Source of the DNA: Candidatus Woesearchaeota archaeon
GTDB taxonomy: Archaea; Nanobdellota; Nanobdellia; Woesearchaeales; UBA10216
Direction: 5' to 3'
Assembly: GCA_016180085.1 (NCBI GenBank)
Contig: JACPBX010000035.1
Coordinates: 1-37,981 of the forward strand
DNA: 37,981 bases
Shown here: positions 6,611 through 33,796 of the stretch, one piece after another
Layout of the letters: every line of letters begins with the position of its first letter
Numbering within the stretch: the stretch's first letter is position 1
Notes under the pieces: generated by a model
Database searches by the model: none
What the model saw: only the letters and a program-made list of their open reading frames with translations
What the model was told of the DNA's origin: nothing
Translations under genes and position numbers: made by a program

Positions 6611-6670
6611 ATAATAAAAAAGAAAAAGCGTAATCGGTATGCGCTTAGATCGTGCCCAACGATCATGCGG
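6611..6670 (-). ncRNA. Putative small structured RNA unit, copy A (two hairpins plus T-tract on minus strand)
   Basis: Minus strand GATCGTTGGGCACGATC-TAA-GCGCATACCGATTACGC-TTTTTCTTTTTT; shared with 13711-13810 and 13931-14020. Confidence 0.35.
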
Positions 6671-6820
6671 ATTCAAACAGCCCTTTTTGCTGCGGCAAAA
6701 CCCAAATCGTGCATAGCACGATTGGGCCCAGTCGTCTTTCAGACGACTTGGGAGCGCTGGCGGAAAACGTCAGTTTTGGATTGACCCTTTTTCCTAAAAG
6801 GGTCACGCTCCCGGCGCATC
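6645..6820. repeat. Palindrome-rich mosaic with a tRNA-like 3' end in the uS10-prs spacer
   Basis: Hairpins at 6648-6664, 6705-6723, 6731-6747, 6757-6773, 6782-6805 and closing stem GGGAGCG/CGCTCCC (6750-6756/6806-6812); shares ATGCGGATTCAAA and CGCTCCCGGCGCATCA with 14180-14295. Confidence 0.6.
6774..6805 (-). repeat. Diverged copy of palindromic element family (ACCYTTTT..AAAAGGKT + ATCNAAAA)
   Basis: Minus strand TGACCCTTTTAGGAAAAAGGGTCAATCCAAAA. Confidence 0.55.
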
Positions 6821-6913
6821 AATTCTTCAGCAATGAAACAATCAAATTTAAATACTACTGCGGATTCGATTTCTACAGGGGTTGGCAAAATCGCAAAAGA
6901 AGACGGCAGCTAC

Positions 6914-14020: not shown

Positions 14021-14179
14021 ACCACGGCAAAATAATTCGGTTTTCCCGCAAGATTTCCGAAAATTCGGCCAAAAAGCGCAAGAAAAAAGCGAGAAACCAA
14101 AACTTCTGCAGCTATACTGGAAGATTTTTGGAAAAACACCCGAAAGACATAAGAAAAATCATTGTTACTAAGATAGTGT

Positions 14180-14291
14180 GCCGGGAAAGCACAAGCTGGT
14201 CGTGCGCTCGTTTGAAAAACGAGTGATCGTGCCCAACGATCATGCGGGTTCAAACTCCTGCCTAGGCAGGGTGAGAGTCCCGCTCCCGGCG
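14180..14291 (+). tRNA. Class II (long variable arm) tRNA-like gene, Ser-like body, apparent ~23-nt insert in T-loop
   Basis: Acceptor GCCGGGA/TCCCGGC + G73; D-arm GCAC-AAGCTGGTC-GTGC; anticodon arm CTCGT-TTGAAAA-ACGAG; variable arm TGATCG-TGCCCAA-CGATCA; T-stem GCGGG...CCCGC with TTCAA interrupted by a CCTGCCTAGGCAGG-containing insert. Position 8 is A, not U. Confidence 0.5.
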
Positions 14292-14296
14292 CATCA

Positions 14297-16297
14297 TTAA
14301 AACAGGTGATAGCTCACAATCAGCCCCGCAGCCAGCAGCGCAATCGTGTTTAGCACCTTGATTAGCGGGTTGAGGGCCGGCCCTGATGTGTCCTTGAAGG
14401 GGTCGCCGACTGTGTCGCCAACGACTGCTGCCTTATGGGCGTCAGAACCTTTGCCGCCAAGCTGGCCGGATTCAATGAATTTCTTCGCATTGTCCCAAGC
14501 TGCCCCTGAAGTGGTCATGGTTATGGCTAGCAGAAGGCCTGTGATTATTGCGCCTGCGAGCAAGCCTCCAAGGGCCTCGGGGCCGAGCAAGAAGCCAACA
14601 GCCAAAGGAGCAGCAACAGCAATTATTCCTGGAAGTATCAGTTCCCTTATTGCTGCCCTTGTGCTTATATCCACACACCTCGCATAGTCAGGCTTTGCCT
14701 TGCCCCTCATCAGGCCAGGGATGGTTTTAAACTGCCTCCTGACTTCCTCAACCATTCCCATCGCAGCATTGCCAACAGCCCTCATCGTAAGAGAGGAGAA
14801 AATGAATGGCAGCAGCCCCCCTACGAACAGGCCAACAACAACTCCGGCATCGTAAATGTTAATCACGTCAACGCCGGTAATGTCCTTGTAGGCAGCGAAC
14901 AAGGATAAGGCGGCAAGGCCTGCCGAGCCAATCGCAAAGCCTTTTGTGACCGCTTTTGTTGTGTTGCCGACAGCATCCAACGGGTCTGTTATCTTTCTCA
15001 CAGAGTCAGGCATCTTGCTCATCTCAGCAATCCCGCCGGCATTGTCGGTTATCGGGCCGTAAGCATCAACAGCAACAATTATGGCCGTCATTGCAAGCAT
15101 CGCTGTTGCCGCAATTGCTACCCCATAAAACCCTCCTCCGAAGGTATAGGCGAGAAAAGCTCCTGCGGCTATTGCAAGGACAGGAACTAAAGTGCTTTCC
15201 ATTCCCTTGGCTAAGCCAAGTATGATGAGCGTAGCAGGGCCTGTCTTTGCAGAGTTTGCAATCTGCTGCACAGGTTTCCGGTTTGCTGCCGTGTAATATT
15301 CAGTAACGTAGCCAATAAGGACAGTTAATGCCAAACCAACCACGGCTGCAATGAAGTATTTGTAATCGCTGAACATCAGCTTGTTGGCAACAAAAAAACC
15401 GATTGCGGAAAGGGCAGCGCTGATGAGTATGCCCCTGTTGAGGGCTGGCCATATGCCGCTGGCAACCGATGTTTTGACGAAGAGGCTTCCTACCACTGAC
15501 GCTAATATTGCTATTGCTCCCAAAACAAGCGGCAGGACAAGCTCATTCGCTGAACCTGCACCGAAAGCTGTCCATGCAAGCAGCATCGCAGCGATAATCG
15601 TGACAGTGTAGCTTTCAAAAAGGTCAGCTGCCATGCCTGCGCAGTCGCCAACATTATCACCAACATTATCGGCTATCACTGCAGGATTCCTAGGATCATC
15701 TTCAGGAATTCCCTTCTCAACCTTGCCAACAAGGTCAGCGCCAACATCAGCGCCTTTTGTGTATATCCCTCCGCCAACCCTCGCGAAGAGGCTTATGAGG
15801 CTGGCCCCGAAGCCGAAGCCGATAAGCAGATGGGGGTCCTTAAGGATTAAGTACAGCGCTGTAACGCCAAGCAAGCCAAGGCCGGCAACTGCAAAGCCTG
15901 TAACAGCCCCGCCTGTAAAAGCGACTGAGAAAGCATCCTTCAGGCTCCTTGTTGCTGCCTGGGCTGTCCTCACATTAGCCCTTACAGAAACCATCATACC
16001 AATATATCCGGCAAGGGCCGAGAGGAAAGCTCCGAGCACGAACGCAACAGCCAGGACGTAAGAGTTCAGGGCGACGGCTATCACAACTGCGAGCAGGACG
16101 GTAATAACGGCAATTGTTTTGTACTGCCTGTTGAGGTAAGCCGCAGCGCCTTCCCTTATGGCAGCGGAGATTTGGCGCATTGACTCACTGCCTGAGTCCT
16201 GCCTGAGAACCTTCATGGTTGACAAAAGGGCAAACAGGAGCGCGACAATGCTGCCGGCAAACGCGAGAATGTACAAAGTTGATACTGCAACCGCCAT
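14297..16297 (-). CDS. hppA: Membrane-bound proton-translocating pyrophosphatase
   Basis: GGGIYTKGADVGADLVGKVEKGIPEDDPRNPAVIADNVGDNVGDCAGMAADLFESY...DAYGPITDNAGGIAEMS...GDTVGDPFKDTSGPALNPLIKV. Confidence 0.97.
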   Translation of the reverse strand: MAVAVSTLYILAFAGSIVALLFALLSTMKVLRQDSGSESMRQISAAIREGAAAYLNRQYKTIAVITVLLAVVIAVALNSYVLAVAFVLGAFLSALAGYIGMMVSVRANVRTAQAATRSLKDAFSVAFTGGAVTGFAVAGLGLLGVTALYLILKDPHLLIGFGFGASLISLFARVGGGIYTKGADVGADLVGKVEKGIPEDDPRNPAVIADNVGDNVGDCAGMAADLFESYTVTIIAAMLLAWTAFGAGSANELVLPLVLGAIAILASVVGSLFVKTSVASGIWPALNRGILISAALSAIGFFVANKLMFSDYKYFIAAVVGLALTVLIGYVTEYYTAANRKPVQQIANSAKTGPATLIILGLAKGMESTLVPVLAIAAGAFLAYTFGGGFYGVAIAATAMLAMTAIIVAVDAYGPITDNAGGIAEMSKMPDSVRKITDPLDAVGNTTKAVTKGFAIGSAGLAALSLFAAYKDITGVDVINIYDAGVVVGLFVGGLLPFIFSSLTMRAVGNAAMGMVEEVRRQFKTIPGLMRGKAKPDYARCVDISTRAAIRELILPGIIAVAAPLAVGFLLGPEALGGLLAGAIITGLLLAITMTTSGAAWDNAKKFIESGQLGGKGSDAHKAAVVGDTVGDPFKDTSGPALNPLIKVLNTIALLAAGLIVSYHLF

Positions 16298-19078: not shown

Positions 19079-19897
19079 CTAACCAATATAGCTGACATCT
19101 TCTCCAGACCGGGCCTTGCCGATGCCGCGAAGGGCTTTTGGCAGCTCGCTCAGCTTTGCCCTTCCCTCTGCTTCAGCTTCCATTTCCCTTATTTCTGCAT
19201 CAAGCTCCTTGATGTTAATGCCCAGAGCGAGCTTGTCGTTAAGAACTGAGACCACTTCCCTTGCGCCCTTGATGCCAAGGTACATGGGATGGGAGAATGT
19301 TTCTGCCAGGAGGGAAACAGCAGGGATTCCCCTGCGCTTGGAGAGCCCAAGAAGCACGCCGGTAACTCCTATTATCGGACCAACAACGCCGTAAAGCTTA
19401 GGCTCAATGCTAATAGACTTGTAGCTTTCAACAACTGCCTTCGTGGTGCCGGTACAGTAAACCTTTGGCTTCTTTGGCACAGCCGGCAGCCCTATGCCGC
19501 CAATAGTGATTACCATGCTGCCGCTCAGCTTCGTAAAGTGATCAAGCACAGCCTCGGAAAAGGAGTAGCAGGACTGCTCGTTGATTGGCTGAACGTCGCC
19601 TGCAACGAATACGATGTCAGGCCTCTTGCCTGAACCTTTCTTAAAATAAAGCTTAATCGAAGGAAGCTCAATCAGGTTTTCCTCTGTAACGAAAACAGAA
19701 TGAGGAAGGTTGAACGAGAAGAACTCGTAAAGCTTTTCAGCCCCAAGCTCCTCAATCATGAAGTCAACAGCTACCTTGCCCACATTCCCGATGCCCGGGA
19801 GCCCTGCGATAAGCATGGGCTTGCTAAGCTTCGGGACGCTCTTTGCCAGCAGCTTTACCGCCCATTCTGCCATTTTTACCGTCATTTTTACAGCCAC
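19079..19897 (-). CDS. PAC2 family protein (proteasome assembly chaperone-like)
   Basis: KPMLIAGLPGIGNVGKVAVDFMIEELGAEKLYEFFSFNLPHSVFV...GVVGPIIGVTGVLLGLSKRRGIPAVSLLAETFSHPMYLGIKGAREVVSVL. Confidence 0.88.
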   Translation of the reverse strand: MAVKMTVKMAEWAVKLLAKSVPKLSKPMLIAGLPGIGNVGKVAVDFMIEELGAEKLYEFFSFNLPHSVFVTEENLIELPSIKLYFKKGSGKRPDIVFVAGDVQPINEQSCYSFSEAVLDHFTKLSGSMVITIGGIGLPAVPKKPKVYCTGTTKAVVESYKSISIEPKLYGVVGPIIGVTGVLLGLSKRRGIPAVSLLAETFSHPMYLGIKGAREVVSVLNDKLALGINIKELDAEIREMEAEAEGRAKLSELPKALRGIGKARSGEDVSYIG

Positions 19898-20079
19898 CCC
19901 TTGGCCTTCAGCTGCCCTTCCTTCGCCTTTCTCCTGTAAGCTGCGTAATTGTCCTCAGGGCTGTACCTTGCGGGCTTTGGAATAACTGTTTTTGATAAAC
20001 CTTTTTCGCAAAAAGGTTTGCTGCAAATTTCCTTAAGCGTATAAACGCTGCAGCCTTGACAACGCATTATGTGCCTCAT
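19888..20079 (-). CDS. nop10: Ribosome biogenesis protein Nop10 with in-frame insert
   Basis: MRHIMRCQGCSVYTLKEICSK-PFCEKGLSK-TVIPKPARYSPEDNYAAYRRKAKEG; normal family spacing is CxxCGxxT. Confidence 0.85.
   Translation of the reverse strand: MRHIMRCQGCSVYTLKEICSKPFCEKGLSKTVIPKPARYSPEDNYAAYRRKAKEGQLKAKGWL
19989..20019 (-). repeat. Palindromic element inside nop10
   Basis: Minus strand AAACCTTTTTGCGAAAAAGGTTTATCAAAAA; 29 of the 30 bases from AACC onward match 33634-33663. Confidence 0.8.
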
Positions 20080-33528: not shown

Positions 33529-33630
33529 GCGGGGATGCCGCAGCGGCCAACCGGGGCAGGCTTAGGACCTGCTGGCTTAGTGCCTTCGGCGGTTCGAATC
33601 CGTTCGGCGGTTCGAATCCGCCTCCCCGCA
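33529..33630 (+). tRNA. tRNA-Leu(UAG) with 18-nt tandem duplication in the T-arm
   Basis: GCGGGGA...GCAGG-CTTAGGA-CCTGC...TTCGGCGGTTCGAATCCG x2 then CCTCCCCGC-A; removing one copy gives a canonical 84-nt tRNA-Leu. Confidence 0.88.
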
Positions 33631-33632
33631 CT

Positions 33633-33664
33633 CAACCTTTTTGCGAAAAAGGTTGATCAAAAAA
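33633..33664 (+). repeat. Palindromic element copy 3 nt after tRNA-Leu
   Basis: CAACCTTTTTGCGAAAAAGGTTGATCAAAAAA; near-identical to the element in nop10. Confidence 0.8.
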
Positions 33665-33796
33665 CGACTGTAACGGAAGGCAGGAGCGAAAAGAATTTAT
33701 AGTAGTAATTACTAATAATTCCTAGTAAGATTAGGAAATTGTTCATTAACTCAAGTTTGGCTTGAGCTTAGATTGGGTAAAGGAGAGGCAGGAGGA

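Follow-up and report, generated by a model that had tools for sequence, protein, structure and literature searches.

The nop10 gene of a Candidatus Woesearchaeota archaeon contains, in frame, a sequence that can fold back on itself, which raises the question whether this palindrome is an inherited part of the H/ACA RNP protein Nop10 or a copy of an element that moves between genes. The gene lies in a stretch of 37,981 nucleotides (contig JACPBX010000035.1, here called the window, to which all coordinates refer) from the draft genome G000 (998,598 bp, 45 contigs), an 82.8 % complete metagenome-assembled genome (MAG). The initial annotation had described a palindromic element inserted in nop10 and likened it to the in-frame palindromic elements (RPEs) of Rickettsia. 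The presence of the in-frame palindrome is confirmed here, and its interpretation as an RPE-like mobile element is supported. All genomes used are metagenome-assembled drafts, and the findings rest on assembled sequence.

The insert in nop10

The insert-bearing nop10 gene (19888–20079, minus strand) is an open reading frame for a protein of 63 aa that matches PF04135 (3.7e-15) and Nop10 entries in the PDB. Its hairpin, AAACCTTTTTGCGAAAAAGGTTT, is located exactly at 19997–20019 on the minus strand: a stem of 10 bp, AAACCTTTTT / AAAAAGGTTT, closes a GCG loop at 20007–20009, with a predicted folding energy of −7.3 kcal/mol and with covariation of the stem in its favour. The hairpin is followed at 19988–19996 by the conserved tail ATCAAAAAC, which is read as S-K-T in nop10 and is kept in other genera too. 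The whole insert (19988–20019, minus strand) is in frame and is translated, as had been stated, as KPFCEKGLSK within CSK-PFCEKGLSK-TVIPKPARYSPEDNY. Shuffled windows gave 0 matches to the nop10 palindrome.

An independent MAG, G004, has this insert too, at the corresponding place and between flanks that are approximately 90 % identical to those of G000. An assembly or binning artefact in G000, to which the draft state and incompleteness of this MAG could point, is hardly credible in view of this second, diverged occurrence and of the hundreds of copies of the element across several MAGs. Four congeners (G001, G003, G006, and G007) have an ordinary Nop10 of 57–58 residues with CSCGSKT, CSKCGSRT, CGKCSFQA, or CASCSSKT in place of CSKPFCEKGLSKT. 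The CxxC/CxC knuckle is uninterrupted in these four and in every other relative in an alignment of 30 Nop10 sequences; the extra residues are, thus, not vertically inherited Nop10 sequence in all relatives. The nop10 gene was not found in the drafts G002 and G005. The distribution over the other six indicates that the insert arose once, before G000 and G004 split.

The gain itself was untidy. The net change in length at nop10 is +15–18 nt, as compared to an element of 32 nt, and a plain insertion of 31 nt would break the reading frame, as 31 is not a multiple of three. The initial annotation was right about an in-frame gain; the common unit is about 32–33 nt, and the event was not a clean insertion of 31 nt. 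The sequence before the event can be reconstructed as, most likely, TGCAGC-AAATGCGGCTCAAAAAC-AGTT, and this putative ancestor and the element have AAA, TGCG, and TCAAAAAC in common. The simplest reading of the event, given these shared stretches, would be a replacement or an insertion guided by microhomology.

The TGC codon at 20008–20010 (minus strand), composed of the last T of the stem arm and the GC of the loop, specifies Cys24. In the alignment of 30 Nop10 proteins and in those with PDB entries, this residue aligns with the fourth, otherwise universal cysteine of Nop10, and the column is occupied in 30/30 sequences. It is plausible, albeit unproven, that the TGC of the element supplies the fourth zinc-knuckle cysteine. 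As GCG is common among the three-base loops of the family (12 of 88), Cys24 may be a matter of luck that was retained by selection. An AlphaFold2 model of Nop10 made without an alignment reached a pLDDT of 55, which is too poor to judge the zinc site.

Anatomy and spread of the element family

The unit consists of a 10-bp stem, NN-ACCTTTTT / AAAAAGGT-NN, around a loop of mostly 3–4 nt, followed by the 3' tail; it is about 32–34 nt long in its short form and up to about 45 nt in a long-loop form. The outer stem pairs vary between A-T, C-G, T-A, and G-C, and the inner pairs change in step: 98.6 % of the cells are paired, double changes number 58 versus 14.6 in shuffles, and the covariation score is 0.359 versus 0.124 (0/500). 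Subfamilies were defined by linked diagnostic positions among 158 copies extracted from retrieved stretches, which were also the basis for the flank counts: CCT..AGG+ATCA with 105 copies, CCT/TCT..AGC+ACCA with 25, mostly of the long-loop form found in tRNA introns, and CCC..GGG or GGT+ATCC with 24.

Many further palindromes of this kind are present in G000 and in relatives, both outside and within protein genes. The pattern CCTTTTTN{1,6}AAAAAGGTT matched the whole draft genome 9 + 10 times on the two strands; its reversed control matched 0 + 0 times. With a covariance model built on hairpin and tail (cut-off E ≤ 0.01) and applied to the best 150 candidates of each genome, so that all counts are lower bounds, we detected at least 29 copies in the 1-Mb genome G000 and at least 91, 60, 41, 38, 21, 4, and 0 in seven congeners. 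Six of the eight MAGs of the genus are rich in copies, with about 20–90 each; the copy-poor ones are G003 (0) and G002 (4). Applied in the same way to 11 other genomes of the family (best 150 candidates each), the model found no copies at E ≤ 0.01. A scan of 84,980 species with an exact pattern, restricted to the form with a four-base NNCG loop, returned 22 stretches, all in five Candidatus Woesearchaeota MAGs. A related hairpin plus tail is present in other genera of the Woesearchaeales (loci L227–L246), with the stem CAAACTTTTT/AAAAAGTTTG and a tail as in the family described here.

Two more copies are located in the window. The near copy that had been placed beside tRNA-Leu is indeed there, at 33633–33665 on the plus strand; it is of the CAACC...GGTTG form, shares the GCG loop with the nop10 copy, and begins two bases past the 3' end of a tRNA gene found with Rfam (33529–33630, plus strand; RF00005, 46 bits), which by our own reading of its TAG anticodon would be tRNA-Leu. 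The T arm of this tRNA (33580–33630) contains an 18-nt tandem duplication, TTCGGCGGTTCGAATCCG. The third copy (6774–6805, minus strand) is diverged, belongs to the TGACCC...GGGTCA + ATCCAAAA subfamily, and adjoins a tRNA-Phe-like sequence of which a decayed 3' part is left (6640–6830; cf. 14179–14300) and on which both this and a second family of palindromes are found. In the T-loop of the tRNA-Phe gene at 14179–14296, GGTTCAAA is followed by an additional stretch that is probably a non-canonical intron.

The second palindrome family is dispersed genus-wide and is represented in the window at 6704–6753 by CCCAARTCG-hairpin-CGAYTGGGCCCAGTCG-hairpin-CGACTTGGG. At L217, a site in Kae1, and at L005/L091, a tRNA intron, it is nested in the first family, and some of its copies may be in frame too. 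In one other genus (G055, G231), the related element is succeeded by another hairpin (GTACGGC...GCCGTAC type), with long direct repeats at the flanks. At locus L180, units of GGCTGGCGGAAAAC form a tandem array next to a copy; one similar unit is present near 6755 in the window.

Copies within other proteins

Besides the one in nop10, at least 20 copies are in frame in other proteins; counts within coding sequences were drawn from stretches chosen for containing a copy. Carriers verified with Pfam are CarB (within the MGS-like domain), CarA, GatD, Kae1/TsaD (within the match to the catalytic family), ELP3 (between the radical SAM domains), the methionyl- and prolyl-tRNA synthetases MetRS (at the N-terminus) and ProRS (in the C-terminal domain), DnaG primase (identified by its layout and a match to Toprim), a DUF460 protein, and a NurA-like protein. 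A DUF362 protein has an antisense copy, and several Q-rich linkers also bear one. Kae1 of G001 reads QLAAA-KPFWKKGLSKN-VTGAAARKY, as compared to an empty or shorter site, e.g., LAAAGKNY, in six other genomes. For DnaG, G004 has a copy at the site, and G000 has none. Two in-frame inserts are present in the Kae1 gene of G001 (L217), the first being a composite, KPFSQKA...GLSKT, that contains the second palindrome family.

The copies are not placed at random with respect to reading frame. Within coding sequences, 24 of 25 are in the sense orientation and one is antisense, and the peptide KPF/NLF-x-EKGLSK recurs. Sense copies that start with AAACC, GAACC, or AGACC are all read in the frame that ends in (E/Q/K)KG(L/S)SK, even though other sense frames are open as well; TGACC copies use other frames because TGA would be a stop codon. 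Such a bias is expected if the peptide is translated and then filtered by selection. TGACC-type copies that follow GC (L104, L159, L177, and others) create a new ATG (GCATGACC) and, with it, possible new N-termini starting with MTF. A homology test for copies that disrupt a gene by breaking its frame gave no convincing case; it was noisy and dominated by spurious open reading frames and tRNAs.

tRNA genes and gene edges

Many copies are present in tRNA introns, in the anticodon loop as well as in the T-loop. Others are located one base before the 5' end of a tRNA (in antisense orientation), two bases past the 3' end of a tRNA, or a few bases upstream of an ATG. Intron-bearing tRNAs were missed by ARAGORN, and Rfam recovered some of them. 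At the same spot of several tRNA introns, different genomes have different subfamilies, which indicates that either the occupancy or the sequence of these sites turns over. Introns in archaeal tRNAs are located at position 37/38, or at another position of the tRNA, and have a bulge-helix-bulge. One of three pre-tRNA/intron folds resembles such a structure, with a helix of 4 bp (UUCG/CGAA), and splicing of the element copies out of tRNAs would be expected from their position.

One could accordingly imagine a mobile archaeal intron on which the tRNA splicing endonuclease acts in tRNAs and in mRNAs alike, the nop10 mRNA included; the element would be cut out and the peptide never made. Many copies are the core of an intron in the anticodon loop or the T-loop, one fold is suggestive, and transposition of tRNA introns is known from the Thermoproteales (Fujishima 2010, as cited in PMC3293823), where, as far as that citation describes them, similar sequences occupy the introns of several different tRNAs. 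The woesearchaeotal unit differs from these introns in that its copies extend to protein genes, gene starts, and the ends of tRNAs. Moreover, nop10 and about 20 other genes keep an open and preferred frame, for which splicing would have no need, excision of 31–32 nt from nop10 would shift its frame, and no evident exon pairing partner is present in that gene. Splicing of the in-frame copies from mRNA is, thus, unlikely, and the explanation that depends on it is improbable. Somewhat less improbable, albeit still unlikely, is the idea that a mobile tRNA intron escaped into the rest of the genome: tRNAs would lose it by splicing, gene edges would tolerate it, and core proteins in which it lands in frame would contain its peptide, which in Nop10 would even have provided a zinc-binding cysteine.

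The clustering of copies at tRNA ends and just upstream of ATG codons, together with the stable, covarying hairpin, could also be taken to mean that the element is a signal for regulation or RNA processing (a terminator or a stability or cleavage hairpin) that is kept at gene edges and gets into genes by occasional accident. This does not agree well with the copies within core protein domains, with the varying orientation of copies to genes, with the difference in presence among close relatives, two of which (G003 and G002) are almost without copies, or with the turnover that was seen in part at orthologous sites. We regard such a signal as a poor explanation of the family as a whole.

Insertion signature and mechanism

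Direct repeats reveal how some copies arrived. On contig C37 of G001, a perfect repeat of 26/26 bp runs from the ATG of a gene to the exact edge of the element and is found again, as a complete start of the gene, just downstream. In a direct-repeat test, seven copies of the genus reach a score of at least 10, as compared to 0.67 expected from re-paired flanks; most copies of the genus have no visible direct repeat. In other genera of the order, related copies have a truncated version of a gene or tRNA on one side and a complete one on the other, and the accompanying direct repeats (84, 70, 56, 54, 46, 33, and 31 bp) stop at the element or within a few bases of it. The repeats, which measure 10–84 bp overall and accompany a minority of copies, indicate by their position real insertions that duplicated a variable stretch of the target. 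Pairs of occupied and empty sites other than nop10 are untidy as well.

The element is multicopy and structured, is present or absent at orthologous sites, and is in frame in many conserved proteins. The insert in nop10 is, with high probability, a copy of a mobile palindromic element that is dispersed in the genomes of this woesearchaeotal genus; the element would move in trans and be filtered by selection where it lands in genes. It would spread as DNA, its hairpin and tail being recognized in trans by an enzyme of the host or of a mobile element. Near gene starts and tRNA ends, insertion would copy a variable stretch of the target, so that an intact gene remains downstream of a truncated piece; within genes, a copy would survive only if it leaves the frame intact and if its hydrophilic peptide, of the KPF/NLF type, can be tolerated. 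The ancestor of G000 and G004 may have gained the element in the second zinc half-knuckle of Nop10, probably aided by microhomology (AAA ... TCAAAAAC), and Nop10 would have retained a cysteine because the loop reads TGC.

Neither a transposase nor, in a non-systematic look, an autonomous partner came to light for the element. REP elements, which are extragenic hairpins with a GTAG or CGTC tetranucleotide at their foot, are moved by RAYT (TnpA-REP) transposases, and the size, high copy number, and compensatory changes in the hairpin of the woesearchaeotal element are REP-like. Three matches to PF01797 (RAYT) were obtained in two of the eight genomes. This domain was not found in the other six drafts, incomplete as they are (G000, G001, G003, G005, G006, and G007), among which are copy-rich ones. 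The foot is also lacking: the usual 5' flank is GCA (60/158 copies), and GTAG is not among the common flanks. As the element is, in addition, often intragenic, its being of REP type and moved by RAYT has little to recommend it. A virus was considered as a carrier and rejected: a search of 2.9 million viral contigs gave one terminator-like match, judged to be due to chance, and none for the second stem form.

Relation to other repeats

RPEs were reportedly described by Ogata in 2000 and 2002. They are 100–150 bp long, insert in open reading frames without breaking the frame, and give rise to a recurrent peptide in unrelated, often essential proteins, while non-coding copies exist too (PMC3767692, PMC10969869). 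The element of the Woesearchaeota is likewise a dispersed palindrome that is in frame in unrelated proteins with a recurrent peptide and also has non-coding copies. Unlike RPEs, it has an archaeal host, is about 32 nt long (about a third of the length of an RPE or less), is built as a hairpin with an A-rich tail, is frequent in tRNA introns and flanks, and has some copies with long variable direct repeats. The resemblance noted in the initial annotation, thus, holds for behavior and not for membership: the element acts like an RPE and is set apart from RPEs by host, length, and anatomy.

With the archaeal MITEs of Sulfolobus and haloarchaea, it shares being a small, non-autonomous dispersed repeat with target duplication in a minority of copies; it differs from them in lacking the terminal inverted repeats of a known IS and in duplications that vary from 10 to 84 bp. 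Inverted repeats within coding sequences are also described for the mitochondria of Nematomorpha, where those in the account consulted are perfect, up to 284 bp in length, and located in an animal mitochondrial genome (PMC6649704); those of the Woesearchaeota are shorter. No description of protein-coding palindromes in Woesearchaeota or other archaea was found in the open-licence literature, in agreement with the initial annotation.

Concluding remarks

In one genus of tiny uncultured archaea, as judged from its genome sequences, a hairpin of 32 nt appears to have spread beside and inside tRNA genes and also inside essential protein genes without breaking them, among them nop10, which codes for a ribosome-assembly protein. 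To our knowledge, selfish palindromes that are in frame have been described as a peculiarity of the Rickettsiales. Their independent occurrence in streamlined DPANN archaea suggests that tolerance of such palindromes may recur in the small genomes of cells that depend on a host. In-frame palindromes in archaea make the creation of protein novelty by inserts testable, and the occurrence of one element in both tRNA introns and protein genes provides a concrete handle on the gain of tRNA introns in archaea.
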